Origin: a virus
IMG/VR virus record: IMGVR_UViG_3300027710_000057
Coordinates: 1 to 39,857 of that record
DNA: 39,857 nucleotides
Direction: 5' to 3' (one strand)
How positions within the stretch are numbered: position 1 is the first letter of the stretch; every line of letters begins with the position of its first letter. The notes under the pieces were generated by a model. That model made no database searches. It saw nothing but the letters and a program-made list of their open reading frames with translations, and was not told the DNA's origin. A program made the translations under genes and the position numbers. Below are positions 990 to 35,922 of this stretch, one piece after another.

Positions 990-995
990 TTCTAT

Positions 996-1003
996 GCTAT
1001 CAT
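996..1003 (+). promoter_or_regulatory. Extended -10 promoter for glycosyltransferase
   Basis: TGC-TATCAT, an extended -10 element, lies 8 bases before the ATG at 1012 and just past the preceding terminator. No good -35 is seen. GGAG at 1004-1007 could serve as a very short Shine-Dalgarno, so the message is leaderless or almost so. Confidence 0.45.
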
Positions 1004-1011
1004 GGAGATAT

Positions 1012-1698
1012 ATGTCAACAACAGCCCTAATTATGTGTACTTATATAAGGTTTGAGAACCTTAAGACTACTTTAGACTGCATAAAAAATCAAACTAATAA
1101 AGACTTTGACTTTTATATTGTAGACAATTCTAATAATAGCGAGAAGTTGTCAAAGTATTTAAATAAATTTGGACAAGGCATAGGTATCTCAGTTCACAGT
1201 TATAATAATGAGTTTAAACAATTTAGTAGGTTTCTACTTGCAAGAGATTTAGCAGAGCAAGGCTATGAAAATGTTATTTTTATTGATGACGACGAAATAC
1301 TTCCACATACATTCATACAAGAGTGTCATGATCAATATGATCAGACATGTTTAAAATCTTTTTGGGCTCACAGAATAAATGCAAGATATAAAAGAAAGAT
1401 TAAGATTGAGCGTGATGAGTATGGTAATTATGCTGGTACTGGTGGCTTAGTATGTGACATAAAACTATTTCTTAATGAAGACTTCTTTGACTGCCCTGAA
1501 GAATATTGGATTATTGATGATCTATGGCTATCCTATTATGTATTGAAGTTTACAGACTATAAGATTAAAGAACTCAAAACAGATATTAAGTTTATTAAAG
1601 ATAGGAAGGCAACATTCCTTACGCTTGGAGATTTAAAACAAAGGTTCTCCGAAGAGTTTATCCTTCCAGAATCTGAAGGTATTGATCCCTTAGAATAG
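1012..1698 (+). CDS. Family 2 (GT-A) glycosyltransferase
   Basis: 228 residues. The N-terminus (ALIMCTYIRFENLKTTLDCI) is the first strand and helix of a GT-A fold, DFYIVDNSNNSEKL the second, and FIDDDEILPHTF carries the acidic DxD-type metal/nucleotide-sugar motif at about residue 95. A later WIIDDLW could supply the catalytic acid. It would move a sugar from a nucleotide-sugar onto an acceptor. I chose ATG 1012 because 994 lies upstream of the -10 element and adds no family sequence. It is the only plus-strand gene of the sugar block and overlaps its convergent neighbour by 41 bases tail to tail. Confidence 0.85.
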   Translation: MSTTALIMCTYIRFENLKTTLDCIKNQTNKDFDFYIVDNSNNSEKLSKYLNKFGQGIGISVHSYNNEFKQFSRFLLARDLAEQGYENVIFIDDDEILPHTFIQECHDQYDQTCLKSFWAHRINARYKRKIKIERDEYGNYAGTGGLVCDIKLFLNEDFFDCPEEYWIIDDLWLSYYVLKFTDYKIKELKTDIKFIKDRKATFLTLGDLKQRFSEEFILPESEGIDPLE

Positions 1699-2689
1699 AT
1701 GGGTCAAAGTTTTCAAACCCAATAGTTGCAGCCTTTTCTTTTTGTAACTGCTTATCGCTATTAACATATCTATCAATCTTTTTACCAAGTTCTCTAACAT
1801 CTGCTTCATATACATCAAGTTTAATTCTTGTCATAAGTGTGCTAACCTTACTAGATGATACAAGCCAGTCCTTTGGAAGTATCTGGTTATTTGGAGATAT
1901 GTCTGTCATAAAAACAGGAAGACCACTTACCAATGCCTCATTCATTGGCAAGCAAAGTCCAGCGTATCTTCTTGGAAGAATCATTGCATCAAAGCCATCA
2001 TACATTGCAGAACGACTTTCAACATTTCCTATCTCAACTGTAAGCCTAGAGTCTTTATAGTTAATGTTTAGTTCGCTCTGGCTTCTAATAACTAATTCAT
2101 AATCAGCCTTGGAGTGACGAAGCATATCAATGACAGTTTGAGTACCGTTTCTATCCTGTGAGGCAGCCTTGCCACCAATATGAAGCAGCCTATTATGGTC
2201 TTTAGATAGGTTATTCTCTCTTACAGACTTAAACTCATCAGTGTCAACAGGCGGCGGTATATGAACAACAGTGGTCTCATTACCAAATCTAGCAATGATA
2301 TCATCTACCTTCCAATAACTTGGAGATATCATATAGGTAGGCAAAGGCATATCTGGCTTATTTAGATGATCAAGGAACTCATAGTTGTACTGCATTAAGG
2401 TTTTAACCTTACGTCTTTGAGCCAGGTGAATGAAGTGTGGATGATAAAAGGTTTCGCAAGTAAGAACAGAGTTTAGACCATCCATAAACATAGACACTTC
2501 TTGCTTTGTAGGAAAGCCATTGGTCATTGTGACATTATATCCGTCATACCATTCTGGATGCTGCTCATTATTATTAAACTTTGCAGAGTTAATAAGAAGG
2601 ATTCTGTCAGGATTAAGCATTCTAACTAAATCTCTTGTTTGATTACCAAGCCCTGTGTTGTCACATCTTGCAATCATTCCAAATGTCAT
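1658..2689 (-). CDS. GT-B fold glycosyltransferase (GT4-like)
   Basis: 343 residues. GLGNQTRDLVRML near the N-terminus is the Gly-rich donor/acceptor loop of GT-B enzymes; RLLHIGGKA opens the second Rossmann domain, and MILPRRYAGLCLPMNEALVSGLPVFMTD matches the nucleotide-sugar binding E-x7-E region of GT4 enzymes (here shortened). It probably transfers a sugar in the surface or virion glycan made by this cluster. The start ATG overlaps the upstream gene's stop (ATGA), so it is translated from the same message. Last gene of the minus-strand sugar operon. Confidence 0.8.
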   Translation of the reverse strand: MTFGMIARCDNTGLGNQTRDLVRMLNPDRILLINSAKFNNNEQHPEWYDGYNVTMTNGFPTKQEVSMFMDGLNSVLTCETFYHPHFIHLAQRRKVKTLMQYNYEFLDHLNKPDMPLPTYMISPSYWKVDDIIARFGNETTVVHIPPPVDTDEFKSVRENNLSKDHNRLLHIGGKAASQDRNGTQTVIDMLRHSKADYELVIRSQSELNINYKDSRLTVEIGNVESRSAMYDGFDAMILPRRYAGLCLPMNEALVSGLPVFMTDISPNNQILPKDWLVSSSKVSTLMTRIKLDVYEADVRELGKKIDRYVNSDKQLQKEKAATIGFENFDPSILRDQYLQILEG

Positions 2690-3417
2690 TCAGTATATCC
2701 CCAAACATCGTCATCTTGTGTAAACTTTCTTGTACCTGCACGACCATCTAAGTGATATGAGCGCTTGATACTGCCTTCTGGATGGTAGATCCAAAGTTTA
2801 TGCTTATCCCATCCGTCATCTTGAACTACTCCATGAAACTTATCTTCAATGAATGTTCTTTCATCGCAAGCAGGAAGCACTACTTCTCTATAATACTTAC
2901 TTAAACTAAGATGCGGTCTTTGGCTCCACTGAATAGTTTTCATAAATCCATCTTCAAGCCCAAGCATAAGATGATCATGTTCAACAGGAATTGATACTTC
3001 AAAGTGAAAACGAATAGTATTTGCTTTTTCATACTCAAGCATGTCTAAACATTTCTGCCAATCAATTTCCATATCAGAAGTTATTGGTGCATCTCCTTCT
3101 ACATAAAGTATTGCTGCGGTTTGAACAAGTCCAATAGTTTCTCTCATCATGTTTGTTTGATGGCTGTGCTCATCAAATATAATTGGCAAAACATTTTTCC
3201 ATTCATGAAGACATTTCCACAGAACCTTGCTCTTAAACTGATCGTAATCTTCTTTGCGTTCCAGCCTTTCTTCCCTTAGCCCATCAATTTGTAAAATGAT
3301 CTCATTATTTGGAAAATGGCTACGAATAGAAAGGATTGTCTCATCAAGTATAGTTGTATCTGGATGACTTGGCAAGATTGATGTTACAACAACTATAGTT
3401 ATATTATCTTTGTTCAT
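2686..3417 (-). CDS. Glycosyltransferase-like protein (GT-A type)
   Basis: 243 residues. ITIVVVTSILPSHPDTTIL, ILQIDGL and ILYVEGDAPIT follow the strand order of a GT-A fold; EGDAP occupies the place of the DxD motif. HLDGRAGTR and QDDDVWGY near the C-terminus resemble the late acidic and basic region of small phage glycosyltransferases. Overlaps the downstream GT by 4 bases and the upstream gene by 14, so it is firmly inside the operon. Donor and acceptor cannot be told from sequence. Confidence 0.65.
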   Translation of the reverse strand: MNKDNITIVVVTSILPSHPDTTILDETILSIRSHFPNNEIILQIDGLREERLERKEDYDQFKSKVLWKCLHEWKNVLPIIFDEHSHQTNMMRETIGLVQTAAILYVEGDAPITSDMEIDWQKCLDMLEYEKANTIRFHFEVSIPVEHDHLMLGLEDGFMKTIQWSQRPHLSLSKYYREVVLPACDERTFIEDKFHGVVQDDGWDKHKLWIYHPEGSIKRSYHLDGRAGTRKFTQDDDVWGYTE

Positions 3418-4264
3418 GTAAGTCCTTCATAATCTCAATAGAAAAATCTCTTTTATATTTAATCCACCAACTAACAATCTTATGCATATTGTTAGGGTAC
3501 TCTAATAGAATTCCTGGCAAAACTGAATTTAACTCACCCCAGTTATTCATTTTCTTAATTGGTAAATCATCTGGGTATACAAATGTAAAATAGTCTTGTT
3601 CTACACCCTTGGAATCAATAAGATCTCCAATAGGCATTGCTAACATTTCTATTGATTCAAAGAACCTAAAGGTATCAATTACCTGTGCTCCAGCGGGGCA
3701 AGGAGCCACCTTAGTCTTTGATAGTGTCTCGTAGTAGTCCTTTGGCTTTTGGCCCTGTGCAAAGCCTGCTGTGGGCTTGTAATGGGCATTTGGTAGAGAC
3801 TCCATAGCCTGACCTAACTCTTTTCTACGGTCATGAGTAATCTGCCCACCAAAATAAACATCATATTCTTTAGTAGGATAATTAGGCAAATTATCTTTTA
3901 AATGTTGTGGAACTCCAACAAAAAACTTATTATATTTTTTGTGTTTTTGATGAGGGTATTGAACCCATATAGAAATATTTGGATGATCTATCTTATCTAT
4001 ATTAAACTTAGCAGACTCATCACCTGTAATAAACAATACAACCCTACTAGAGTTTTGAAGTTGCTTAGAGATGTAAGCCTCTTTGCCAGCATTGCCTTGT
4101 CCAGGTATCACCACAAAACATCTTTCCTCATTTGGAATTGAGTCAACTGTTAGTTGCTCTACTCCATTTCTTTCAAAGGTTGATCTTAATAGTTCATAGT
4201 CCCACTTACCGTCTGCAGAGTCAAGAGGATTTACTGAATATAGATATGCTTTAGGCTTGTTCAT
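3404..4264 (-). CDS. Exostosin-like (GT47-type) glycosyltransferase
   Basis: 286 residues from the ATG at 4264, chosen because it overlaps the FkbM gene end by 14 bases and begins MNKPKAYLY. The C-terminal half reads YDVYFGGQITHDRRKEL then SKTKVAPCPAGAQVIDTFRF and FFESIEMLAMPIGD, close to the exostosin/GT47 signature (small-residue strand, C-P-x-G, then T-F-R-F-x-E-x-x). Likely a glycosyltransferase of the same pathway; exact sugar unknown. Hydrophobic segments are absent, so it is cytoplasmic. Confidence 0.65.
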   Translation of the reverse strand: MNKPKAYLYSVNPLDSADGKWDYELLRSTFERNGVEQLTVDSIPNEERCFVVIPGQGNAGKEAYISKQLQNSSRVVLFITGDESAKFNIDKIDHPNISIWVQYPHQKHKKYNKFFVGVPQHLKDNLPNYPTKEYDVYFGGQITHDRRKELGQAMESLPNAHYKPTAGFAQGQKPKDYYETLSKTKVAPCPAGAQVIDTFRFFESIEMLAMPIGDLIDSKGVEQDYFTFVYPDDLPIKKMNNWGELNSVLPGILLEYPNNMHKIVSWWIKYKRDFSIEIMKDLHEQR

Positions 4265-4976
4265 AGTAAAGATGAACCTCATGCTGATAGTCTAGAATTG
4301 TTTCTGTATATCCAATTTCTTTAATCCATTGTCTTAAGTTATATAGTGATTCATCCCATTGTTGCAGCATAAATTCTGGATGACCAGATAACCAAATCTT
4401 AGGTTTGTATTCTCTTAGCACCTTCTCAGCACCACCAAGCACACGCCACTCACTACCTTCTACATCTAAAGAGATAGCCGTAGGAGCCTGAATCCCATGA
4501 TCATATACACAAGAATCTATAGTAATCTGTCCATATGTATCTCCTTCAAGGTATAGTTCTTTAAATCCATGGGCTGCTTCAATTACATTATTAACTTCTG
4601 GTGGCCATTCGTTGTAATAAATTCTTGCAAGATCATTTATCTTATCAGATGCAAAGCCAGGGATACATACCATAGGAAGTTCTAGATTATTTGCAGTCCA
4701 AGTTGCAGGAAAGTGTGACCAAACTTTAGGATTTGGTTCAAACAAAACTACTTCTGCACCCCACATTTGACACAGTGCTGGGAACTCTCCCTCTTCTGCA
4801 CCAACATAATATACGGTGTCACCTTTGCCAATACGTTCTGACATATGTTTTAGTCTTGGCTTTTCCCAACCGCTTGGAAGATACCATTCTGCTCTATCTG
4901 CACGATGCTTTGGTAGCACTATTTCAAACTCTCCATTTAATACTGCTCTAACCATTTCTGTCATTTTTGAATCCAT
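4251..4976 (-). CDS. FkbM-family SAM-dependent methyltransferase
   Basis: 241 residues. VYYVGAEEGEFPALCQMWG is the SAM-binding motif I with the first Rossmann strand, VVLFEPNPKVW is the acidic ribose-binding strand (FEPNP is typical of FkbM), and AISLDVEGSEWRVLGGAEKVL matches the FkbM core D-V-E-G-x-E. It probably O-methylates a sugar of the glycan built by neighbouring enzymes. Overlaps the epimerase by 16 bases and the exostosin-like gene by 14. Confidence 0.85.
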   Translation of the reverse strand: MDSKMTEMVRAVLNGEFEIVLPKHRADRAEWYLPSGWEKPRLKHMSERIGKGDTVYYVGAEEGEFPALCQMWGAEVVLFEPNPKVWSHFPATWTANNLELPMVCIPGFASDKINDLARIYYNEWPPEVNNVIEAAHGFKELYLEGDTYGQITIDSCVYDHGIQAPTAISLDVEGSEWRVLGGAEKVLREYKPKIWLSGHPEFMLQQWDESLYNLRQWIKEIGYTETILDYQHEVHLYYEQA

Positions 4977-5845
4977 TCCATTAGAGATACCTTTGGCATC
5001 CAGCCAGTTAAATCTTTAAACTTTTGATTTGAAGCAAGTGTTTCTTGCACTTCTCCAACTCTTGGCGGGATAAACTTAATATCATTTGAAATGCTATTAG
5101 CAAGATCTAAGATAGAATAGTTACTACCAAATCCAATGTTATATACTTCTCCAAAACCAGAAGTTAATTCAGAGGCAATTATATTTGCATCAATAACATC
5201 TGATATGTGGGTAAAGTCTCTTCTTTGTGAGCCATCTCCAACTACTGTTAAAGGCTTTCCTTCTCCGTGCTGCTTCATAAATAGACCAATTACTGGTGCG
5301 TACTGACCTTTAAGTGGCTGCCTGTTACCATATACATTAAAGTATCTAAGAGATACAGTCTCCAAACCATATAGGTTGTAATAAACTCTTGCCAAGTTTT
5401 CTCCAAAAACCTTTGCTGTTGAGTATGGTGTTAGTGGATCAGATGGCTGTGTTTCTATATTGGGTATAGATGACTTCTTTCCATAGGCAGAGGAAGTGCT
5501 TGAGTATATAAATCTTTTTACATTATTTACCCTAGAAAGTTCAAGAATATTTGCAGTACCTACTGCATTTGATTCAATAGACTTTCTTGGATTGAGGATT
5601 GCTGGCTGAATTCTGGCATCTGATGCAACATGAAACACATTATCAACACCTACAAAAAGATCCTTAATGTCTTCATAGTTGCAGATATCATACTTATAAT
5701 TTTGAGCCTTATCATTCCAGTAAAATGTTTCATGACATTCAGCAGATTCGTTATCTATACAGATAACTTCATGACCTAAACTAATTAGTCTATCTACTAG
5801 GTTTGAACCAATAAATCCTGCTCCACCTGTAACCAAAGATTTCAT
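4961..5845 (-). CDS. NAD-dependent sugar epimerase/dehydratase (extended SDR)
   Basis: 294 residues. N-terminal TGGAGFIGSNLVD is the GxxGxxG NAD(P)-binding loop; VICIDN is the acidic strand; SSTSSAYG holds the catalytic Ser/Thr and YSTAK the Tyr-x3-Lys pair, about residues 120-145. RYFNVYGNRQ and DFTHISDV are the substrate-loop motifs of UDP-glucose 4-epimerase and dTDP-glucose 4,6-dehydratase relatives. It would interconvert or dehydrate a nucleotide sugar used by the neighbouring transferases. Starts at the stop of the upstream gene. Confidence 0.88.
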   Translation of the reverse strand: MKSLVTGGAGFIGSNLVDRLISLGHEVICIDNESAECHETFYWNDKAQNYKYDICNYEDIKDLFVGVDNVFHVASDARIQPAILNPRKSIESNAVGTANILELSRVNNVKRFIYSSTSSAYGKKSSIPNIETQPSDPLTPYSTAKVFGENLARVYYNLYGLETVSLRYFNVYGNRQPLKGQYAPVIGLFMKQHGEGKPLTVVGDGSQRRDFTHISDVIDANIIASELTSGFGEVYNIGFGSNYSILDLANSISNDIKFIPPRVGEVQETLASNQKFKDLTGWMPKVSLMEWIQK

Positions 5846-6801
5846 TAGATGCCTAACTCTTTAAGTATTTCTTTCCATCTATGAACATATGTGTGATCTT
5901 TTTTAGTTCTTTCATGGCCATTTAATCTAATGCGTTCTCTATCAAGGCTATCGTCAAGATACTTGTCTACCTTAGATTTTAGATCTTCTAGGTTGCCATG
6001 CTCATAGAAAACAATTTCATTGCCATCTTCAAAGTAATCTTCAAGCCCAACAATGCGAGGGTAGATAGTGAATCCACCACGACCAGTAGACTCAAATAAC
6101 CTATCGCTAGTATAGTAAGGATACTTAAAGTCAATGTTTAGACTATCTCCAACTGCAACCTTGCTCTGTGCATAAATCTTATTTAGTTCATCACCACGTA
6201 CTGTACCAGTATCTCCATCTCCACCTACATGAAGGAACCTATCTCCATATGTTTTTCTTAAAAAGTCTATTAGTTCTGAGCGATACTTGTGCTCATGGTG
6301 ATACCTCTTGCTTCCAACAAAGATAACATCATACTTAAAGTCATATGGGTTATAGGCTTCATGGATGTAGCATTCTTTGTCATAGACACCAGCAGGAATA
6401 AAGTGACCCTTTACGCTGGTGTTCTCATTAAACCAGTCTGCCATAAGTTTATCTACAGTAAAGAAATGTCCAATTGTCTTATAGAAGTTATCTTCTTTAA
6501 GATCTTTTTGACGGTCAAGACCAAACCAAAGATCAAGGTGATAGGTGATTGTTGGAACGCCTGCCTGCTTTAGTTGAAGCAAAACATTGTCCATCGTAAT
6601 ACGACCAGTTGTTTCCCAGCCGTGAGTGTGTACCCAGATAAACAGATCTGAGTCTAAGGCCTGGTCAAGGATGACATGACTCTTTGCCTTTCTTTCCTGC
6701 AATTTTACAACGGTATGTCCAAGAGATTCAAGACTCTTAACATGGTGATTCTCACTACTATAAGAAACCTCAAAGTTTCCTAGAAAAACAATTTTAGCCA
6801 A
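5845..6801 (-). CDS. CgeB-like glycosyltransferase, TTG start
   Basis: 318 residues. Translation starts at TTG (6799-6801) with AAAAGGGG about 7 bases upstream; no ATG fits. IVFLGNFE, TITYHLDLWFGLDR, FFTVDKLMADWF, DVIFVGSK and RLFESTGRGGFTIYP follow the CgeB/DUF3880-type GT-B layout, where the last motif is the donor-binding segment. It is the first gene of the minus-strand sugar operon, preceded by an extended -10 promoter between it and tRNA-Arg. Confidence 0.75.
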   Translation of the reverse strand: MAKIVFLGNFEVSYSSENHHVKSLESLGHTVVKLQERKAKSHVILDQALDSDLFIWVHTHGWETTGRITMDNVLLQLKQAGVPTITYHLDLWFGLDRQKDLKEDNFYKTIGHFFTVDKLMADWFNENTSVKGHFIPAGVYDKECYIHEAYNPYDFKYDVIFVGSKRYHHEHKYRSELIDFLRKTYGDRFLHVGGDGDTGTVRGDELNKIYAQSKVAVGDSLNIDFKYPYYTSDRLFESTGRGGFTIYPRIVGLEDYFEDGNEIVFYEHGNLEDLKSKVDKYLDDSLDRERIRLNGHERTKKDHTYVHRWKEILKELGI

Positions 6802-6827
6802 CGAATTACCCCTTTTAGTTTCATTCT

Positions 6828-6836
6828 ATTATAGCA
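6828..6836 (-). promoter_or_regulatory. Extended -10 promoter for sugar operon
   Basis: Minus strand TGC-TATAAT, 27 bases before the TTG start of the CgeB-like gene and just outside the tRNA-Arg gene. No convincing -35 is seen because that position falls inside the tRNA. It could restart transcription after tRNA processing. Confidence 0.5.
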
Positions 6837-6842
6837 TCTTTG

Positions 6843-6915
6843 TGTCCCAGGCAGGATTTGAACCTGCGACCTTTACCTTAGAAGGGTACTACTCTATCCA
6901 CTGAGTTACTGAGAC
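6843..6915 (-). tRNA. tRNA-Arg (anticodon UCU)
   Basis: Full cloverleaf by eye on the minus strand: acceptor GTCTCAG pairs with CTGGGAC, D-arm ACTC...GAGT, anticodon loop CTTCTAA (UCU), T-arm GCAGG-TTCGAAT-CCTGC, discriminator A. The closing pair of the anticodon stem is a mismatch. No CCA is encoded (ACA follows). It reads AGA, a codon favoured by AT-rich genomes. Confidence 0.9.
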
Positions 6916-6916
6916 T

Positions 6917-6993
6917 TGGTACGCCAGGTAGGACTTGAACCTACGATAACCGAATTATGAGTTCGGGGCCTTAACCAACTTGGCTACTGGCGT
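6917..6993 (-). tRNA. tRNA with CAU anticodon (Met or Ile2)
   Basis: Minus strand cloverleaf: acceptor ACGCCAG with CTGGCGT, D-arm GCC-AAGTTGGTTAA-GGC, anticodon stem CCGAA/TTCGG around loop CTCATAA (CAU), T-arm GTAGG-TTCAAGT-CCTAC, discriminator A and an encoded CCA (6917-6919). It is either elongator Met or an Ile tRNA whose C34 is modified to lysidine; the A1-U72 pair does not settle this. Overlaps the 3' end of the upstream small gene by 10 bases. Confidence 0.9.
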
Positions 6994-7253
6994 TTAGGTT
7001 TAGGCTTTGGCATTCTCTCTTTAATCAATTCTATCACAGTGTCAATGCCCTCTGCAAATGCCATAGCATCATCCTTAGCCCAAAACAAGGTTCCGTCTTT
7101 ATTAAAGGATGATCCACGGTAAACTAAATAGTCATTCTTAGTTTTTTCAAATAAGTCAATTAGTTGTTTCCGTTCCGCTGCAACTGTTTTTTGACAACCA
7201 CTACAAGGGCATACCCAGTCACCACGGGATGGGGTTTGATTTGGATCAGCCAT
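6984..7253 (-). CDS. Small cysteine-containing hypothetical protein
   Basis: 89 residues. The N-terminus has CPCSGC at about residues 15-20, a compact metal-ligand-like cluster with only three cysteines, followed by a helical region and a Pro/Lys-rich tail (MPKPKPKRQ). Shine-Dalgarno AGGAAA lies before the ATG. It sits between carbamoyltransferase and tRNA-Met, and its last codons overlap the tRNA. Function unknown. Confidence 0.65.
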   Translation of the reverse strand: MADPNQTPSRGDWVCPCSGCQKTVAAERKQLIDLFEKTKNDYLVYRGSSFNKDGTLFWAKDDAMAFAEGIDTVIELIKERMPKPKPKRQ

Positions 7254-7254
7254 A

Positions 7255-8913
7255 TTATTTCCTAACTACTACCTTAAGTTCTGGCAGATATAAATAGTCT
7301 ATATTAGAATTATACAGTGTCCAAAGTGCGTCGTCAAGTGTTTCTACTATGGTGTTTCCAGCAAGATTAAATGATGTATTAAACAGTATTGGTACACCAG
7401 TAATTTTTCTGAATTCATAGATTAGTTCATAATAGTTTATATTATCATTCTTTTCAAGAGTCTGAACCCTGCAAGTTCCATCAACATGAGTTATTGCGGG
7501 TATAAGTTCTTGCTTATCTTTTAAAACATCTACAGCAAACATCATAAACTTTGACTCATTTAAATGTCTAAGGTCAAACCATTCTTTTGCGTGTTCAATC
7601 ATAACTGTGCCAGCAAAAGGTCTAAACCATTCTCTCTTTTTTACTGAGTTAACATGATCTTTGCCGTCTCTATCTCTTGGATCATACAAAATGCTTCTAT
7701 TGCCAAGAGCACGTGGTCCAGACTCTGAGCCACCTTGATATATAGCAACAATATTTTTATCAGCAATTAACTGTGCAACATCTACTGGCGATACATTCTC
7801 TATAATGCTGTGATTGTTTAAAAGGTTATTATCATATTTATATTTTGGACCATAGTAAATGTCATTTCTTTTCTTTGGTTCTGTGTTATTTGATAAAGCA
7901 TGATGGATATATAATGCTGCACCTATCGCATTACCTGCATCACTTGACACTGGTTCTATATATATGTTTACATCATTGGGTAATTGCTTTAGCAAGTTAT
8001 AGTTTGATACGCAGTTCAGGAAAAACCCTCCAGACAAGCAAAGGTTTTTTTGTCCAGTTTGTTTTAGCATAAATAAAATATAGTCTGCAACTTTTTCTTG
8101 TATTTGAGTTTGTAATGCATATGCAAAGTCTGCTTTTTCTTGAAAGTTATCTTCTAAATTAATTTTAAAGACATACTCTCCATTTTCTATTGCAAAAATA
8201 TCATCATTGATTAATCCATTTTTATAAATAGATGGAAACTTTTTATTTGGTTTTCCATAGGCAGACAATCCCATTACCTTGCCAGCATCAAGATAATCAA
8301 AGCCAAGGTTAAATGCTGTAATCTCAAAAGCATGTGCCTCAGAGACAGTGTTTGTTGCATAAACTCCTGGACCAATCTCACATGGTGAAAATTTGGAAGG
8401 AACTGGAACAGTTACCATCTTATCAATCATAGTAAAGTTATTAGGGTATGATCCAACAAACGCTGTAGATGCTTCTTTACCAACAATATCGTTAGAATAG
8501 TTTTCATTATTGAAGCAATATTCTGAACCAGCACCATCTTTAACTATACATAATGCGTCTGTAAAACCAGAATTATAGAACGCTGTTGCTGCATGCATTT
8601 CATGGTGCTTGTCCCAAAGATCATGAACTGTTATATTGTTTTGTGTGAAAGATTTTCCTAGTCCAAGAACCATTGCTGTGTATGCATCATTATGTATATA
8701 TTTATCATATACAAGTGTTGGCGAAAACCCAGATAAAACTATGTGGTCCACATGGTCAACGTAATCTTTTATTTTAGACAAAGCCTGAAACTGAAACTTG
8801 TCATGCTTTATGTTTGAAAGACGCTCACCTTCAAGATGAAACAATAGTTCTCCATCTTTTAGTAAAGCAACAGACCCATTATGTGTAGTTTTATTTATTC
8901 CAAGAATAATCAT
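7255..8913 (-). CDS. Carbamoyltransferase, NodU/CmcH family
   Basis: 552 residues from the ATG at 8913, chosen because it overlaps the upstream stop (TAATG) and starts the family sequence MIILGINKTTHNGSVALL. HHEMHAATAFYNSGF is the metal-binding His-rich motif of the Kae1-like N-terminal domain (about residues 105-120); ESGPRALGNRSIL and REWFRPFAGTV are hallmark motifs of the C-terminal carbamoyl-transfer domain. The family transfers carbamoyl from carbamoyl phosphate via a carbamoyl-adenylate onto a hydroxyl, usually of a sugar. The length is normal for the family. In a phage this suggests carbamoylation of a glycan or of a modified base; the flanking glycosyltransferases favour the glycan. 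Confidence 0.92.
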   Translation of the reverse strand: MIILGINKTTHNGSVALLKDGELLFHLEGERLSNIKHDKFQFQALSKIKDYVDHVDHIVLSGFSPTLVYDKYIHNDAYTAMVLGLGKSFTQNNITVHDLWDKHHEMHAATAFYNSGFTDALCIVKDGAGSEYCFNNENYSNDIVGKEASTAFVGSYPNNFTMIDKMVTVPVPSKFSPCEIGPGVYATNTVSEAHAFEITAFNLGFDYLDAGKVMGLSAYGKPNKKFPSIYKNGLINDDIFAIENGEYVFKINLEDNFQEKADFAYALQTQIQEKVADYILFMLKQTGQKNLCLSGGFFLNCVSNYNLLKQLPNDVNIYIEPVSSDAGNAIGAALYIHHALSNNTEPKKRNDIYYGPKYKYDNNLLNNHSIIENVSPVDVAQLIADKNIVAIYQGGSESGPRALGNRSILYDPRDRDGKDHVNSVKKREWFRPFAGTVMIEHAKEWFDLRHLNESKFMMFAVDVLKDKQELIPAITHVDGTCRVQTLEKNDNINYYELIYEFRKITGVPILFNTSFNLAGNTIVETLDDALWTLYNSNIDYLYLPELKVVVRK

Positions 8914-9590
8914 TATTCGTATTTCTTCTTCTTCCAATATGTTTTCTTATACCATCCAGATAATACTAAATTACTTCTTTCTTTATTCAGCATTGAGTTT
9001 TCGTAAAGACCCTCTTCTTTTATTGCTTTCCACTCTTCTGTTTTAAATGGTATTAGTTGTGCAATTGGGGTTCCTTGTGGAATTACACCTTCAAAGTCAT
9101 TTTTTAGGAAAAAGGGTATTCTTCCAGGATGCATAGTAAAACTATCAACTACCCCACTTACAGTAATAAAGGGTAGATCAAATCTATTAATAGGCTGCAC
9201 GATTAGCATACTGTATCCGTCAGGGATTTCTATTGAAGTATGCATGACCCATGCAGTTGATGCTGGACTATATCCTACTGGAACTGGTAGTTCTCCAGAA
9301 AACTTTGAGTCTCTGAACTCAACAAGGTCATCTTTGCCACCCCAAGTTATTTCAGATGCAAATTCTCCTACCTTCTTTACCAATACATCTCCAACTAGGG
9401 GAATATAGTATCCAGTTGTAAGCGAGTCAAAGAATGGCATACAGTGTTTAATTGCTGTATCATAAAATGCTGGCTCTCCATTAATCCACTGCTTAGTATC
9501 TTTATACCATTTTGGAATAATATTTTTAATTGGCAAGATTGTTGGATATATTGAACTAGAAGATTCAGTTTTAATAATTTTTTTACTCAT
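8913..9590 (-). CDS. DUF6065-like family protein, copy A1
   Basis: 225 residues. Shares with the genes at 10318 and 35024 the ordered motifs IP-x-W-[YW]-K-D, C-M-P-[FV]-F-D-S-L-T-T-G-Y-x-I-P-L (about residues 50-67), P-x-G-Y-S, G-V-V-D, F-E-G-x-I-P-x-G-T-P-I-A-Q-L-I-P-F and a basic aromatic C-terminus. Beta-rich with no TM or signal. Biochemical role unknown. Start has GGAGATAG upstream; the ATG overlaps the preceding glycosyltransferase stop (ATGAGTAA) and its stop overlaps the carbamoyltransferase start, so it is tied to sugar modification. Confidence 0.7.
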   Translation of the reverse strand: MSKKIIKTESSSSIYPTILPIKNIIPKWYKDTKQWINGEPAFYDTAIKHCMPFFDSLTTGYYIPLVGDVLVKKVGEFASEITWGGKDDLVEFRDSKFSGELPVPVGYSPASTAWVMHTSIEIPDGYSMLIVQPINRFDLPFITVSGVVDSFTMHPGRIPFFLKNDFEGVIPQGTPIAQLIPFKTEEWKAIKEEGLYENSMLNKERSNLVLSGWYKKTYWKKKKYE

Positions 9591-10302
9591 GACTATCTCC
9601 GTTTTCTAGTTCCCACATTTTCCAATAAAGATTATAATAGTATTGATCAAAAGAAAATCTCTTCATATGTTGGACAACAGCACCAGTATGAGCAAAAAGA
9701 GGTATGCCAGCCTTCTTTAATTTTCTAAAAAATACAACATCTTCACTTACAAACTTACTGCCAGGGTATTCCTGCTCTGCAAATAAAGAGTACCCTGGAT
9801 CAATCTCTTGCATTTTTGAAATAATTGATTTGTGCATTAACACTAGTCCAAAACCAGCACAGTCAACCTGTATTAACTGATTTTCAGGCATTGGATGAAC
9901 TGCTTCTAATGAGTTTTGCTCTCCAGTTTCAAAGAATAATGCTGGAAGTGGTTGCATCAAAGGCATTTCATTTTGAGATGTAATGAAGTATGTTCCAGTT
10001 ACAACTGGATGAACCAGTTTGTCTGCTGAGTCCCAGATAGTTTTTAGTACTTCTTTTGTAATCACAATATCTGAGTCTACCCATAGTAACCAATCTGTTT
10101 TTACGTTATTGGCCCATTCATCAAAAACAACCTGCCTCTGTCTTCCAATTTGATTACCAGTTACACGAATCTTTTGCTTAATGTTTACTCCGATATCTTT
10201 GGCAGAAATTACAGTATTTAGCATTCCATCTGTAAATCTTGCATCAGTTAATCCGTTATCACACCAGGCAATTGCAACTGTTTCATCTTTAAAATGTGTC
10301 AA
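9583..10302 (-). CDS. GT-A glycosyltransferase, probable TTG start
   Basis: About 239 residues. The open frame begins with TTG at 10314, but GGGGAT lies ideally for a second in-frame TTG at 10302 (LTHFKDETVAIAW), which I prefer. RQRQVVFDEWA and WLLWVDSDIVIT give the GT-A nucleotide-sugar strand and DxD metal motif; CAGFGLVLMHKSI and FVSEDVVFFRKLKKAG hold the acceptor loop and the catalytic E-D. Typical of phage and cyanophage family 2 transferases. It lies between two DUF6065-like genes. Confidence 0.75.
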   Translation of the reverse strand: MTHFKDETVAIAWCDNGLTDARFTDGMLNTVISAKDIGVNIKQKIRVTGNQIGRQRQVVFDEWANNVKTDWLLWVDSDIVITKEVLKTIWDSADKLVHPVVTGTYFITSQNEMPLMQPLPALFFETGEQNSLEAVHPMPENQLIQVDCAGFGLVLMHKSIISKMQEIDPGYSLFAEQEYPGSKFVSEDVVFFRKLKKAGIPLFAHTGAVVQHMKRFSFDQYYYNLYWKMWELENGDSHE

Positions 10303-10317
10303 AATAATCCCCAATAA

Positions 10318-11049
10318 CTACTTGTATGTTTTCTTTGACCATATGTTTTTTACATAATGGTTAACTATTGTTCCTTCAAAACCACGAGCCATCGCTTTGT
10401 CAAACTCATCATTTTCAAAAAAAGAAAACTCAGATTGCCAAGAATCTCTTTTGAAAGGAGTTATCTGTATCAAAGGAGTTCCTTTTTCAATTATACCTTC
10501 AAAACCATCTTTAAGCCACATTGGAACTGTAAGATCATGAATAGATTTATCAGAGTCAATTACTCCTGGTATTGCATGTAATGGCAAGTCTCTATATCCA
10601 AATGGCGATGTAACTAAGCAAGAGTATCCACTTGGAGTTATTGGAACCCATCCGTTTAAGTATTTTAAAACCCCATCACGATATCCAGGAGGTCTTTCTA
10701 CCCATTTTGCGGAAGGTCCATGTATCTCAAATATACCCCTAGAGGTTCTCCAACTTAGACTTGGCTCTCCGTTATCCTCATCTTTATAAGAAACTAAAAC
10801 ATCAGCCCATAATGGAATTATATATCCAGTTGTTATGGCATCAAGCATTGGGGTACATTTTTTTGCTGTGGCATTTGAATGTCCACGCTCATTTACTATT
10901 AGTTTTTTACCATCAATGTTTTCGGGTGAAGGGAAGTATGGTTTCATCTCACGCCACCACCTTGGTATAGACTGAGATGCTGGGAAAGGTCTTAACTGTG
11001 TGTCAAACACGTACTGATCAAGTGCACGAAACTCAATTTTTTTTGTCAT
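10318..11049 (-). CDS. DUF6065-like family protein, copy A2
   Basis: 243 residues with the same motif order as the 8913 copy: IPRWWREM, KKCTPMLDAITTGYIIPL, ITPSGYSCLVTSPFGYRDLP, IPGVIDSD, FEGIIEKGTPLIQITPFKRDSW and a C-terminal NIWSKKTYK. The stretch P-x-G-Y ... G-V-I-D-S-D ... F-x-G-x-I-x-x-G-T-P-L-x-Q-I resembles the order of dUTPase/dCTP-deaminase beta-clip motifs, without the usual catalytic residues. Cytoplasmic by composition. Starts in a TAATG overlap with the gene at 11049. Function unknown. Confidence 0.7.
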   Translation of the reverse strand: MTKKIEFRALDQYVFDTQLRPFPASQSIPRWWREMKPYFPSPENIDGKKLIVNERGHSNATAKKCTPMLDAITTGYIIPLWADVLVSYKDEDNGEPSLSWRTSRGIFEIHGPSAKWVERPPGYRDGVLKYLNGWVPITPSGYSCLVTSPFGYRDLPLHAIPGVIDSDKSIHDLTVPMWLKDGFEGIIEKGTPLIQITPFKRDSWQSEFSFFENDEFDKAMARGFEGTIVNHYVKNIWSKKTYK

Positions 11050-11468
11050 TATACAATCTCTCCATTAATAAACCTAGCAACCATGTCAAATCCTTCTTTG
11101 AATCCATCATTAAAGTCTTTATTTGAAAAATCTTGCTTTGGCATTCTTTTTAGTTCATCTAAAAATTCATTTCTTATTTCAGATATAAACTTGCAGGTGC
11201 ATTCATTAAACTTATAGTTGGGGTGAAGAGTTTTTTTACAATAAGCATCATGAAATTTTTTATTATTTATCTCTTCTTTTGCTTCATCACAGGCAAGACA
11301 TTGAAAATTTTCAAACTTAGGATCTGTGTATGCCTCTCCAAGTTCATTAATAGTATATTCTTCAGTCTCTACCTTCATGCAATATGGATGAGAAAAAGGA
11401 ACAAAGACAATTTCACCATTTGCCTCAAAAAGTTTTCCCTTTTTTGTACCATTCATAAAAATAGCCAT
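11049..11468 (-). CDS. Cysteine-rich hypothetical protein
   Basis: 139 residues. Cysteines occur as NFQCLACDEAKEE (CxxC at about 58-61), HDAYCKKTLHP and NECTCKF (CxC), so two metal-binding pairs are plausible. The N-terminus is beta-rich (ANGEIVFVPFSHPYCM), the end helical. No known family recognised. TAATG overlaps on both sides place it in the same transcript as the DUF6065-like gene and the micro-genes upstream. Confidence 0.65.
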   Translation of the reverse strand: MAIFMNGTKKGKLFEANGEIVFVPFSHPYCMKVETEEYTINELGEAYTDPKFENFQCLACDEAKEEINNKKFHDAYCKKTLHPNYKFNECTCKFISEIRNEFLDELKRMPKQDFSNKDFNDGFKEGFDMVARFINGEIV

Positions 11469-22860: not shown

Positions 22861-22877
22861 TCGTTCGAAAAATCTTG

Positions 22878-22951
22878 CGAAGCGTACGGGACTTGAACCC
22901 GTGATCTCTACCGTGACAGGGTAGCGCATTAACCAACTATGCTAACGCTCC
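22878..22951 (-). tRNA. tRNA-Asp (anticodon GUC)
   Basis: Minus strand: acceptor GGAGCGT with ACGCTTC (one G-T pair), D-arm GCAT-AGTTGGTTA-ATGC, anticodon stem CTACC/GGTAG around CTGTCAC (GUC), T-arm ACGGG-TTCAAGT-CCCGT, discriminator G as in Asp tRNAs. No CCA is encoded. It lies just downstream of the DUF932 gene and is cut from the same transcript or a separate one. Confidence 0.93.
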
Positions 22952-22956
22952 ATGCG

Positions 22957-22977
22957 GAGCAGTTTTAAATCATGCTC
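22957..22977 (-). other. GAGCA/TGCTC hairpin element copy
   Basis: Minus strand GAGCA-loop-TGCTC between the DUF932 stop and tRNA-Asp, preceded by CCT. One of seven copies; no T-run follows here, so it is not a plain terminator. It may guide tRNA processing. Confidence 0.5.
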
Positions 22978-22989
22978 AGGATTTTTTTG

Positions 22990-24009
22990 CTATGCGAGTT
23001 GCATTACATTTTTTACAACTTTGAGCAAACGATTCTTCTCTGCGTTAATTGCAGGGTCAAATCCACTTGCGCTTGCGAGGATAGATTCGTTATTGCCACC
23101 ACGAGCAGAACGATACCAGTCAAGGCGCTCTGTAAGTGCATTGAACGCACCCCACGCATTACCAGCAATCATGCCGTTAAACTCGCCTGTGTAGATATCG
23201 TTAATCATATCCACTTTGGTTTCCCACTTCTTGTTGCTACCCTTAGCGTCCTTCTCAGGCTTTGGGTAAGCAGCGAGAATGATATCATTGAAAGACTTAG
23301 CAGAGACCTCAGTCTCAATCATAGCCTTAGCCATTTTATCAAACTCGTCCATGTACTGATTAGCAAGACCAAGAGTCTCACGAGCAATCTGTACCTTGCC
23401 GTTAGCGGTCTGTGTGTGGCGAATCTTGAATGATTGCTTAGGGCCATTCTTCTTACGACCTACGCCATTGAGCGCAAGGTTAAGAGTATTAGCGCACACA
23501 ACACGAACAGGTGTAATGCTTGCTTGAATAGCGATTGAGCCATCATGTGAGGTGTTAATGAGAAGATAAGTCTTTACCTTATCTGCAACACCGCTAGGGT
23601 CAAGAACAGTCTCACGCTCTAGTGCTAATGCACCGAACACAACACGCCCACCCTTGATAGAGCCAGCGGTTTCCCAACGACCACCGCCGTCAAGAATGTT
23701 ATCACCGAATGAAAATAGGTCTTCATTCTGCAATACATGGTATCGCTCACCTACAACACCAAGAACATCTGTCTGTGTGTTATCGGTAGGATTGGTACGC
23801 AAAACATATTGGTATGCCTTGTCGCTTGTTAAGTGTGCAGGGATAGGCATATCTTCAAGACGAACATTCCAACCATTGAGGTTTGCAGCCTCTAACATTT
23901 CTGCGGTGGTTTTTTCTTCTGTGAATACAGTACCCAATCCATGCCATGCGGGTTCACGGAAAGAAGCAAAAGATGTTTTTCCGTTTTGTGTTTCTAGGTC
24001 ATGTGCCAT
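22990..24009 (-). CDS. DUF932 phage/plasmid-like protein
   Basis: 339 residues, near the usual family length. EPAWHGLGTVF near the start is a signature of the DUF932 (TIGR03299-type) family; VLGVVGERYHVLQNEDLFSF, GRVVFGALAL and ASITPVRVVCANTLNLAL follow in the expected order, with KIRHTQTANGKVQIARETLG later. These proteins are encoded by many phages and plasmids and are often supposed to modulate DNA transactions, but the function is not established. The operon has a type I promoter, a CRP-type site and DnaA boxes upstream. Confidence 0.92.
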   Translation of the reverse strand: MAHDLETQNGKTSFASFREPAWHGLGTVFTEEKTTAEMLEAANLNGWNVRLEDMPIPAHLTSDKAYQYVLRTNPTDNTQTDVLGVVGERYHVLQNEDLFSFGDNILDGGGRWETAGSIKGGRVVFGALALERETVLDPSGVADKVKTYLLINTSHDGSIAIQASITPVRVVCANTLNLALNGVGRKKNGPKQSFKIRHTQTANGKVQIARETLGLANQYMDEFDKMAKAMIETEVSAKSFNDIILAAYPKPEKDAKGSNKKWETKVDMINDIYTGEFNGMIAGNAWGAFNALTERLDWYRSARGGNNESILASASGFDPAINAEKNRLLKVVKNVMQLA

Positions 24010-33533: not shown

Positions 33534-34286
33534 ATGATAAACAGTGGGGTAGATGTTCCTGAAAATGTTATAGCAATATTTAAAACTGCTGACAACTCCT
33601 TAACAGATGATAGATTAAATTCAATATTATTTAAATCTCCTAAACGCAGAGATTGGTTTGAGCCAAACTTCTATAGATGTTTGCCATTAGCCATAGGAAA
33701 TCAATATGGATTTCAAATAGCCTGTGAGTTTGATTTTGGTGTAAAGTGGGATGGCACAAATAATACAGATGCCATAACTTTCTATTTCAACAAAGAAGAA
33801 GAAGAACTCTCTACAATGTTTCCAATGCTTAGTTCACATTTTGGCAACGGCATATTAACAATAACTGTTCCATTTGTAATAAGAACACCTCCTGGCGTAA
33901 ACATTATGACGATAAATCCTCCAAACTCAATTGTAGAGAATATGACAGTTATGACAGGGGTTGTAGAAACAGATAATCTGCGACATAACTTTACATTTAA
34001 TATTCGCATACAAAAGCCAAACGAGACTACATACTATAAAGCAGGAACTCCGCTTGCTGCCTTTATCCCTATTCCTAGATACTTTGCTGATGGGTTTGAA
34101 CTTGTGATGGCTGAAGATATTTTTGATCAAGAAACTATTTACGAAGAGATGCAATCTGTAAAAGACTTTTTTATACAAAGAACTGACATAGATCCAAATC
34201 TGCCTAACGAAGTAAATAGACAATATTTCAACGGTATAGATGTTTATGGTAATAATTTTTCTGATCATCAAAAGGCTGGTAGATAA
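33534..34286 (+). CDS. DUF6065 family protein, copy B1
   Basis: 250 residues. NFYRCLPLAIGNQYGFQIAC, FGVKWDG, LSSHFGNGILTITVPFVIRT, TPPGVNIMTINPPN, MTGVVETDNLRHNFTFNIRI and KAGTPLAAFIPIPR follow the conserved order of the DUF6065 family. Family function is unknown. It is beta-rich, cytoplasmic and followed by a second copy. The last three motifs align with those in the genes at 35024, 10318 and 8913, so all five belong to one superfamily. Confidence 0.8.
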   Translation: MINSGVDVPENVIAIFKTADNSLTDDRLNSILFKSPKRRDWFEPNFYRCLPLAIGNQYGFQIACEFDFGVKWDGTNNTDAITFYFNKEEEELSTMFPMLSSHFGNGILTITVPFVIRTPPGVNIMTINPPNSIVENMTVMTGVVETDNLRHNFTFNIRIQKPNETTYYKAGTPLAAFIPIPRYFADGFELVMAEDIFDQETIYEEMQSVKDFFIQRTDIDPNLPNEVNRQYFNGIDVYGNNFSDHQKAGR

Positions 34287-35023
34287 TGTTAAACGATGGA
34301 ATAAACAATGTGCCTGATAACACTATAGTTGCGTTTTCAGATAATTTAGATTTTGATATCAACCTTATTGATCACTTAATCACAAAGCCAGATAAGCGCA
34401 GGCAATGGTTTAATCCTGAGTTCTATCACTGTCTGCCATTAGTCATTGGTAACCAACAAGGCTTTATGATTCGTGCTGCATTTGACTTTGCTTTTGAGTG
34501 GGATGGTGGAGAAGGTCCTGAATCTATAAAACTATGGACTGATGCTCCTCATCATAATAGGTTTGATCCAATTCATTCATCTTTTGGAAAAGGGGTATTG
34601 TCAATCAATCCTCCATACATACTAAGAACTCCACCAGGAGTAAATCTCATAACAATAAATCCGCCTAACTTTATTATTCCAAATATCACAGTTATGACGG
34701 GTACTGTTGAAACAGATAATCTTCGTCGTAACTTTACACTCAACCTAAAGATACATATGCCTAACATAAAGGTTCAAGTATCTGCTGGAGATCCAATAGG
34801 ATGCATATTGCCAGTGCCTAGAGGTTTTGCTGACGGCTTTACCTTAAAGAAGGATTACGAAGTATTTGATGAAGATGTTATTCTAGAAGAAATGAATGCA
34901 AGCCTAGATAGCGGAACACATAGATCTGAAATAGAACCTAGCATGCCAAATCAAGTTAGTAGACACTACTTCGAAGGAAGAGATGTTTATGGCAACTATT
35001 TTGAAGATCACCAAAAGCCTTAA
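34286..35023 (+). CDS. DUF6065 family protein, copy B2
   Basis: 245 residues, a close paralogue of the preceding gene throughout: RRQWFNPEFYHCLPLVIGNQ, FAFEWDGG, SSFGKGVLSINPPYILRTPP, GVNLITINPPN, MTGTVETDNLRRNFTLNLKI, SAGDPIGCILPVPRGFADGF and YGNYFEDHQKP. TAATG overlap with copy B1, so a tandem duplication. Converges with copy A3 with no gap. Confidence 0.8.
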   Translation: MLNDGINNVPDNTIVAFSDNLDFDINLIDHLITKPDKRRQWFNPEFYHCLPLVIGNQQGFMIRAAFDFAFEWDGGEGPESIKLWTDAPHHNRFDPIHSSFGKGVLSINPPYILRTPPGVNLITINPPNFIIPNITVMTGTVETDNLRRNFTLNLKIHMPNIKVQVSAGDPIGCILPVPRGFADGFTLKKDYEVFDEDVILEEMNASLDSGTHRSEIEPSMPNQVSRHYFEGRDVYGNYFEDHQKP

Positions 35024-35725
35024 TTATTTAAAACTTTTGCGGGACCAGAACTGATTCTTATAAGAGTGAAAGAACCTAGTATGTAATGCAATGCTATTCT
35101 GATCAGCGCTCTCAATGTCCCTATTAGATCTACTTACCTCACTTGTCCAGTTTTCTCTTCTAAATGGAATAACCTGCACTAGCGGTGTTCCAGCAGGGAT
35201 AAGACCATGGAATGTTTCATCTGTTAGCACAAATGGAAAGTTCACTGGTGAGAAATAATGATCTGTATCTACAATTCCAGGGAGTATGGTTATTGGAGAT
35301 TCTCTATTAAACGGTTGTTGGAAAATACAAGAATATCCTTTAGGTGTACGAATTGACCAGGGACTCATAATCTTAGGAATATCCAATCCATTATTCATAG
35401 GATGAAACTCAGCCTGCTTCTGGCTATGATACTCAATAAGATCAAAGTTAGCCCAACTAAAGAGTGGTTTGTGTGTTCCATCTTCTCTCACAGGGTTATC
35501 AACCCAAATATCGCAGGGTAGAGGGATTATATATCCCGAAGTCAAAGAATCAAATACTGGCATACACTGTTTAATCGTCTTAGTAGTACCTTGCCCAATG
35601 TTTGGCTGCTTGACGTTACCCATATAGTTCTCTGTATCCTTATACCACTCTGGCAGTACATTTTTTGCTGGCTTAGGATAGAACTCTTCTGGCACAAACC
35701 TCATTAGAGTAAATTTGATATTCAT
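35024..35725 (-). CDS. DUF6065-like family protein, copy A3
   Basis: 233 residues from MNIKFTLMRFVPEEFYPKPA at 35725 (TAATG overlap with the upstream stop). NVLPEWYKDTENYMGN, KQCMPVFDSLTSGYIIPLPC, IRTPKGYSCIFQQPFN, LPGIVDTDHYF, HGLIPAGTPLVQVIPFRREN and FWSRKSFK match copies A1 and A2 and also link to copies B1 and B2 through R-T-P-x-G, G-[IV]-V-[DE]-T-D and A-G-T-P-L. Function unknown. Confidence 0.75.
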   Translation of the reverse strand: MNIKFTLMRFVPEEFYPKPAKNVLPEWYKDTENYMGNVKQPNIGQGTTKTIKQCMPVFDSLTSGYIIPLPCDIWVDNPVREDGTHKPLFSWANFDLIEYHSQKQAEFHPMNNGLDIPKIMSPWSIRTPKGYSCIFQQPFNRESPITILPGIVDTDHYFSPVNFPFVLTDETFHGLIPAGTPLVQVIPFRRENWTSEVSRSNRDIESADQNSIALHTRFFHSYKNQFWSRKSFK

Positions 35726-35922
35726 TACCATTTCCCTACTGGACAGGAAGCCTTGTCAATCAAAGTCTTCAACTTCATAAAGCAGCCACATTTCTTACAA
35801 CTTAAATTTCCTTTACGAAAGAACTCACAGCCCTTACATATAGCCAAACGCTCTGCTGCTATCTCTTCAGGTGCTCTAGGAGATCCGTTAATCAAATCCC
35901 AAGGCTTTGCATCTTTACTCAT
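35725..35922 (-). CDS. DUF6171-like cysteine-rich protein, leaderless
   Basis: 65 residues from MSKDAKPWDLINGSPRAPEE. ICKGCEFFRKGNLSCKKCGC, FMKLKTLIDKASCPVGKW: six cysteines in the layout CxxC...CxxCGC-M...CP-x-GKW, which I associate with the small DUF6171 family. It probably binds two metals. The ATG is 6 bases past a TATAAT (35929-35934 on minus), so it is leaderless. Confidence 0.7.
   Translation of the reverse strand: MSKDAKPWDLINGSPRAPEEIAAERLAICKGCEFFRKGNLSCKKCGCFMKLKTLIDKASCPVGKW

Follow-up and report, generated by a model that had tools for sequence, protein, structure and literature searches.

A putative glycan cassette with a conserved five-gene core and exchangeable decorator genes in uncultured phages

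INTRODUCTION

Knowledge of phage glycosylation has so far come from a few cultured phages. In mycobacteriophages, tandem glycosyltransferases (GTs) and an O-methyltransferase modify proteins of the capsid and tail (Freeman 2023, as cited in PMC11600133 and PMC12619734), and cyanomyoviruses carry sugar/lipopolysaccharide clusters which adjoin tRNAs (PMC3037559). Here, we describe a gene block from the IMG/VR virus record IMGVR_UViG_3300027710_000057, which was analyzed as a whole (39,857 bp; "the window", to which positions refer unless another contig is named). The block is located on the minus strand at 1,658-11,049 and encodes five GTs, a short-chain dehydrogenase/reductase (SDR) epimerase, an FkbM methyltransferase, a NodU/CmcH carbamoyltransferase, and two tRNAs. 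We consider it fairly likely that it represents a cytosolic glycan cassette which glycosylates the virion proteins of the phage itself.

A five-gene glycan core with interchangeable decorators is kept across dozens of contigs from uncultured, putative actinophages, and one of its GTs has more than 400 relatives. The exchange of decorators resembles the variation of surface sugars in bacteria. If virions are indeed coated, this would be a widespread and fast-changing phage coat which could govern host recognition. Two of the core GTs do not themselves fall into any named family, and the associated DUF6065 family lacks a described function. Streptomyces phage Dryad provides a cultured test system.

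CONSERVATION OF THE CORE

A search with the GT encoded at 5845 (GTs are named here by their start position) retrieved 429 relatives in IMG/VR, the best 80 of which were analyzed as loci. All 80 show at least 77% identity to the query GT; for other genes, identity drops to about 51-60%. The order GT-FkbM-GT(exostosin-like)-GT(GT-A)-GT4 was found on one strand in 51 of the 54 loci that extend 6.5 kb or more downstream, and only FkbM is missing from the five-gene core in the remaining three. The proteins of the stretch 994-6801 are also found, with 100% identity, in an independently assembled record (IMGVR 3300028025_001494). Judged from the recurring gene order and from the independent assembly, the gene grouping is far beyond chance. 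Co-occurrence in phages, which the initial annotation had put forward as a check, holds for the core; a carbamoyltransferase homolog is present in 11 of the 80 loci.

The ratio of nonsynonymous to synonymous changes (dN/dS) is about 0.06-0.14 for core genes when compared to several relatives, with GT4 reaching up to 0.20 in the most distant one. In comparison to the closest relative found (IMGVR 3300008116_000069, 52.5 kb, referred to as G001; its alignment spans 1-14 kb of the window), the value for GT 1658 is 0.07. GT 2686 has a dN/dS of 0.08 and the epimerase one of 0.09. These ratios show purifying selection on the block and support a working unit; remnant genes, which the initial annotation had named as an outcome that would speak against it, are not what they indicate. 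The homolog of GT 994 in one locus (L152, near 6401) seems to hold a stop codon, which is either a sequencing error or marks a pseudogene; this comparison was left out of the dN/dS results.

The genes of the block and those at its borders are:

994-1698, plus strand: GT2-family (GT-A) glycosyltransferase, convergent with the block, with a 41-bp tail overlap (PF00535, E = 2.2e-7, above the cutoff)
1658-2689, minus strand: GT4-type (GT-B) glycosyltransferase, last core gene (phrog_2170 glycosyltransferase, 5.9e-17; Glyco_trans_1_4, 3.9e-5, below the cutoff)
2686-3417, minus strand: GT-A fold glycosyltransferase, core gene, without a Pfam or PHROG family (AlphaFold, Foldseek, and VIA)
3404-4282, minus strand: exostosin/RXYLT1-like (GT-B) glycosyltransferase, core gene (family matches in relatives, none for the window protein itself)
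4251-4976, minus strand: FkbM-type methyltransferase, core gene (PF05050, 42.5 bits vs. a cutoff of 22.7; phrog_8156 methyltransferase)
4961-5845, minus strand: SDR nucleotide-sugar epimerase, UDP-glucose 4-epimerase-like, in a variable slot (PF01370, 6.6e-58; 4zrm UDP-glucose 4-epimerase, 2.8e-47)
5845-6801, minus strand: GT-B glycosyltransferase (Glyco_trans_1_2), first core gene (PF13524, 2.6e-25)
6842-6915, minus strand: tRNA-Arg (tct) (ARAGORN, Rfam)
6917-6993, minus strand: tRNA-Met (cat) (ARAGORN, Rfam)
6984-7253, minus strand: small ORF (open reading frame) of 89 aa, no assigned function (homolog in 17 of the 80 loci)
7255-8937, minus strand: NodU/CmcH (Nol-like) carbamoyltransferase (PF16861, 5.7e-59; PF02543, 1.3e-27; phrog_1601, 7e-158)
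8913-9590, minus strand: DUF6065/phrog_7084 paralog b (phrog_7084, 7.1e-32)
9583-10314, minus strand: GT2-like glycosyltransferase, a common phage singleton (phrog_34859, 2.2e-103; absent in G001)
10318-11049, minus strand: DUF6065/phrog_7084 paralog a, dUTPase fold, positional ortholog of G003_60038 (AlphaFold, VIA, tree)
11049-11468, minus strand: ORF of 139 aa, no assigned function, at the head of the run

The five GT-like genes, epimerase/dehydratase, FkbM, NodU/CmcH, and two tRNAs which the initial annotation had placed within about 10 kb are all present, the protein-coding genes as intact, overlapping ORFs. It had passed over a sixth GT (994-1698, plus strand), which has a convergent ortholog in 17 of the 80 loci, and the DUF6065 genes at 8913-9590 and 10318-11049. 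Most adjacent genes of the block overlap, by 1-32 bp, and hydropathy predicts no membrane segments in any block protein. The epimerase (PF01370, 196 bits) has both its cofactor motif (GGAGFIG, corresponding to GxxGxxG) and the catalytic YSTAK (YxxxK). The tRNA-Met/tRNA-Arg pair is found upstream of GT 5845 in many relatives, whatever their decorators, and was therefore rejected as part of the pathway.

Two of the five GTs required additional analysis for their assignment. Among the relatives of GT 3404, 18 of 24 match RXYLT1_C (best 1.2e-6) and 11 of 24 match Exostosin_GT47 (best 6e-4). A profile comparison between GT 3404 and GT 5845 gave no significant match. The AlphaFold model of GT 2686 (pLDDT 82) resembles glycosyltransferases (Foldseek, E 3e-7), with B4GALNT1 as the best match (VIA Z 16.2, 180 residues aligned, 3.3 A), followed by many polypeptide GalNAc-transferases; as modeled, GT 2686 has a GT-A fold. 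The count of five GTs is thus considered right. Searching INPHARED with tblastn gave no match for GT 2686 or GT 3404.

EXCHANGEABLE DECORATOR GENES

The slot between GT 5845 and the exostosin-like GT is variable: it holds an orthologous epimerase in 34 of the 80 loci, a different SDR in 22, and none in 24. Also seen there in relatives are additional methyltransferases, the unassigned gene family c18, and a deacetylase which resembles PIG-L (E 1.6e-4, not reaching the cutoff). The upstream carbamoyltransferase has three close homologs (99, 62, and 59%) among its 11 occurrences, the others being at 30-33%. As both slots vary across relatives, carbamoylation and the epimerase product would be optional decorations and not part of the pathway core. 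The single carbamoyl-methyl-sugar pathway of the initial annotation is thus replaced by a core (GT-FkbM-GT-GT-GT) with swappable additions. What stands of the proposed methylated, carbamoylated glycan is a phage glycan locus with enzymes for methylation and, potentially, for carbamoylation, the latter not being a fixed part. The additional GT 9583 was tried as a cassette marker but was rejected because its 53 viral relatives do not have the cassette; both this gene and the epimerase are absent from G001.

The carbamoyltransferase has the Pfam domains Carbam_trans_N and Carbam_trans_C (97.6 and 198.9 bits; cutoffs 24 and 27) and has kept the metal-site motif HxxxH of the Kae1-like domain (WDKHHEMHA vs. 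PHHLAHA in the novobiocin carbamoyltransferase 9s2t). Translation probably starts at the ATG at 8913 (552 aa), which overlaps the stop codon of the preceding gene, and not at the listed TTG at 8937. The gene (7255-8937) is 99% identical to its counterpart in G001 (L007 10717-12129), while the flanks are mostly at 73-93%, with differences of 7-30%. Its synonymous difference is 0.02 compared to 0.33-0.62 for the neighboring genes, which indicates a recent exchange. The G001 copy has an in-frame N-terminal deletion of about 80 residues.

A 107.7-kb relative (G003) encodes a Trp-halogenase-like protein, a sulfotransferase, an APS (adenosine 5'-phosphosulfate)-kinase-like protein, nucleoside triphosphate (NTP) transferases, and a TylF methyltransferase, so that its glycan might possibly be sulfated or halogenated. 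The sulfotransferase, Trp-halogenase-like, and APS-kinase-like genes are at L229 1913-2794 and at L230 9502-11058 and 11580-12341.

CARRIER AND HOST

G001 continues 40 kb leftward, with genes that by eye resemble tail, DnaE, RecA-like, and terminase genes. Its TerL shows 54-56% identity to Streptomyces phages, and WhiB, which belongs to Actinobacteria and phages infecting them (PMC10202952), is present in six of nine related records. From the TerL similarity and WhiB we infer an actinobacterial host, and the best explanation for the carrier of the block is an actinobacterial siphovirus-like phage. The first 12 kb of the window had no megablast match in INPHARED.

FUNCTION OF THE CASSETTE

The five core enzymes, being cytosolic, would probably use nucleotide sugars of the host to assemble a short oligosaccharide bearing methyl groups, with the SDR epimerase supplying a sugar, and the methyl and carbamoyl groups would be placed on sugar hydroxyls. 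Glycan composition would be varied by the swappable epimerase, carbamoyltransferase, and extra GT2 and, in relatives, by other epimerases, methyltransferases, deacetylase, halogenase, and sulfotransferase. Still in the cytosol of the host, the product would then be attached to proteins of the tail or capsid. On the particle, it might mask the virion or alter adsorption.

Genes for lipid-linked export or polymerization were not found in the block. The genes overlap, and the block proteins lack predicted membrane segments, which fits cytosolic transfer better than lipid-linked export. Streptomyces phage Dryad carries a homolog of GT 5845 (31% identity), an NTP-transferase-like gene, and FkbM in a row (genes 34-36), directly following a 1206-aa protein with BppL_N repeats, near minor tail genes. 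The lack of export and polymerization genes, the several cytosolic GTs, and the proximity of GT and FkbM to tail genes in Dryad are the reasons why glycosylation of virion proteins is favored, and the mycobacteriophages mentioned above provide a precedent. Several points weigh against it. The block adjoins small genes in this genome and is not located with structural genes, in contrast to its Dryad homologs. The acceptor protein, the enzyme chemistry, and the sugars used are hypothetical, FkbM enzymes methylate non-sugar substrates too, and the 80 loci are the best matches to one GT, hence related viruses.

Rather unlikely, in our view, is a remodeling of the host cell-surface glycan during infection, resulting in superinfection exclusion or receptor masking. 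Actinobacterial hosts are not known to have O-antigen, which counts against this role, as do the Dryad homologs next to tail genes and the lack of a flippase, a polymerase, a lipid-phosphate sugar transferase, and any membrane segment in the block. A host-surface role has nevertheless been proposed for phage glycosyltransferases generally (PMC10202952; for lipopolysaccharide clusters of cyanophages, PMC3037559). Of host surface and virion, the virion is the more probable target as far as sequence can tell. The enzymes might also glycosylate and further modify phage DNA bases, as the initial annotation had considered. DNA hypermodification by GTs occurs in some phages (Pyle 2024, as cited in PMC12619734), DNA modification has been proposed for Nanopelagicales phages (PMC10202952), and GT 994 has a weak, insignificant match to TAGT (E 0.056). 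However, enzymes of the thymidylate-synthase/hydroxymethylase family were found in none of the nine related records, for which controls were positive but which may be fragments, and looking through the larger ORFs of G003 (107.7 kb) by eye revealed no such entry enzyme. We thus regard base modification as improbable.

Two further explanations have a very low probability. One is that the block is "stuffer", a mixture of acquired genes in decay which does not form a working pathway. The absence of the epimerase and GT2 from G001 and its shortened carbamoyltransferase would fit, but decay is confined to the decorator genes of this one relative, while the low dN/dS of the core and epimerase and the conserved core order contradict it. 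Just as improbable is a role in making a small metabolite with sugar or carbamoyl groups, in the manner of the relatives CmcH, TobZ, and GdmN from antibiotic clusters. Solved relatives of the carbamoyltransferase do act on antibiotics, and Trp-halogenase-like genes occur in related records, but the block lacks a scaffold-building enzyme (polyketide synthase, nonribosomal peptide synthetase, aminocyclitol), and four to six GTs are indicative of an oligosaccharide.

THE DUF6065 FAMILY

The window encodes five DUF6065 paralogs, two in the block and three elsewhere:

33534-34286, plus strand: DUF6065 paralog by tail-fiber genes (PF19541, 1e-39)
34286-35023, plus strand: DUF6065 paralog (phrog_7084, 8e-9)
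35024-35731, minus strand: DUF6065/phrog_7084 paralog, clusters with G003_33322 (phrog_7084, 2.3e-54; tree)

The latter three are in a row (33534-35731) and adjoin collagen-like tail-fiber genes. Each of seven related records has 1-8 paralogs, and at least 572 viral stretches encode DUF6065 relatives; no literature on DUF6065 was found among open-licence papers. The AlphaFold model of the protein encoded at 10318-11049 (pLDDT 95.6) retrieves dUTPases and one dCTP deaminase as top Foldseek rows (best E 9.5e-4). VIA aligns it to dUTPase with Z 9.7 (128 aligned, 5.2 A) and Z 9.5 (2.8 A over 117), and sequence profiles agree (hhalign E 1.1e-4, probability 57%).

DUF6065 shares the fold of the dUTPase superfamily and keeps the equivalents of E. 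coli Asp90 and Asp92. Asp165, which is invariant (68/68), is profile-aligned with the catalytic Asp of E. coli dUTPase (Asp90, motif III, GLIDSDY). In contrast to dUTPase, the motif II RSG, the motif IV Arg, Tyr93, and the C-terminal motif V are lost (PRSG is replaced by P-x-G/N, GERIAQ by GTPxxQ, and GGFGSSG is absent), so that a canonical dUTPase was rejected. Also unlike dUTPase, Lys63, Cys65, Asp70, Asp83, and Arg201 are additionally conserved, and the paralogs are position-specific. Conservation of Lys63, Cys65, Asp70, Asp83, Ser143, Gln195, and Arg201 suggests that these may form the active site. The dUTPase domain PF00692 was not found in the related records.

The tree places the copy from the GT cassette with its counterpart at the cassette of G003 (support 93/95), and the tail-fiber copy with that of G003 (support 100/95). 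This grouping by position indicates that the copies are old and position-specific. We tentatively suggest, with considerable doubt, that DUF6065/phrog_7084 proteins are re-tooled dUTPase-fold enzymes with a new substrate, the paralogs of which serve glycan loci and tail-fiber genes. They could, for example, process a nucleotide or nucleotide sugar for virion decoration, a role which is equally tentative.

Other DUF6065 copies of G003 (L231; 96608-97342, 99254-100000) are single-gene insertions by dnaE and between primase-like and DnaB-like genes. The latter two are directly adjacent in G001, and the placement in G003 is moron- or homing-like. In haloviruses, a DUF6065 relative is located between ribonucleotide reductase and adhesin/tail-fiber genes. 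Chromosomal homologs (L236-L312), mostly from Rhizobiales, adjoin an S8 protease-like gene and genes for anti-sigma and ECF (extracytoplasmic function) sigma factors; this bacterial context revealed no link to sugars. A 3.5-kb contig (L233) which is binned to a metagenome-assembled genome of an uncultured Microbacteriaceae encodes a DUF6065 protein 49% identical to that of the window. It is perhaps a phage contig which hints at an actinobacterial host.

Other ORFs of the window include those for GP88, DUF932, PNKP-phosphatase, HNH, and Pyr_excise proteins, besides the collagen-like tail-fiber genes. About 40 very short ORFs make up the long run at 11500-33000; few of them match a family, and several are Cys-rich and zinc-ribbon-like. 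At 22877-24009, a tRNA-Asp (gtc) adjoins a DUF932 gene, and tRNA-Asp is near DUF932 also in several relatives.

COMPARISON WITH KNOWN SYSTEMS

As far as the citing papers describe them, the virion-glycosylation loci of mycobacteriophages (cluster O and relatives) share with the block the actinophage context, tandem GTs, and a methyltransferase gene. Compared to these, the window, for which virion glycosylation is putative, adds the FkbM methyltransferase, SDR epimerase, and carbamoyltransferase. Dryad, as a cultured cousin, differs in that neither a carbamoyltransferase nor an epimerase is annotated there.

The initial annotation had called the gene combination unusual for a phage, but 144 INPHARED records contain Nol-like carbamoyltransferases, and sugar clusters adjoining tRNAs have been described for cyanomyoviruses. 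Cyanomyoviruses S-SSM7, P-SSM2, and S-CAM8 encode Nol-like carbamoyltransferases with 40-50% identity to that of the window, and some of them also have a nucleotide-sugar epimerase, sugar clusters proximal to tRNAs, and tail-fiber neighbors. They differ in being T4-like, in having cyanobacterial hosts, heptose-pathway genes, and 2-oxoglutarate oxygenases, and in their other neighboring genes. Pelagibacter phage Mosig has epimerase, methyltransferase, and carbamoyltransferase genes near one another. Among open-licence papers, none was found which combines phage, carbamoyltransferase, glycosyltransferase, and FkbM. Already known are thus phage carbamoyltransferases and tRNA-adjacent sugar clusters, in cyanomyoviruses; new is a glycan cassette of actinophages which combines a defined, conserved core with swappable decorators and which includes two unnamed GT families and the dUTPase-fold family DUF6065.

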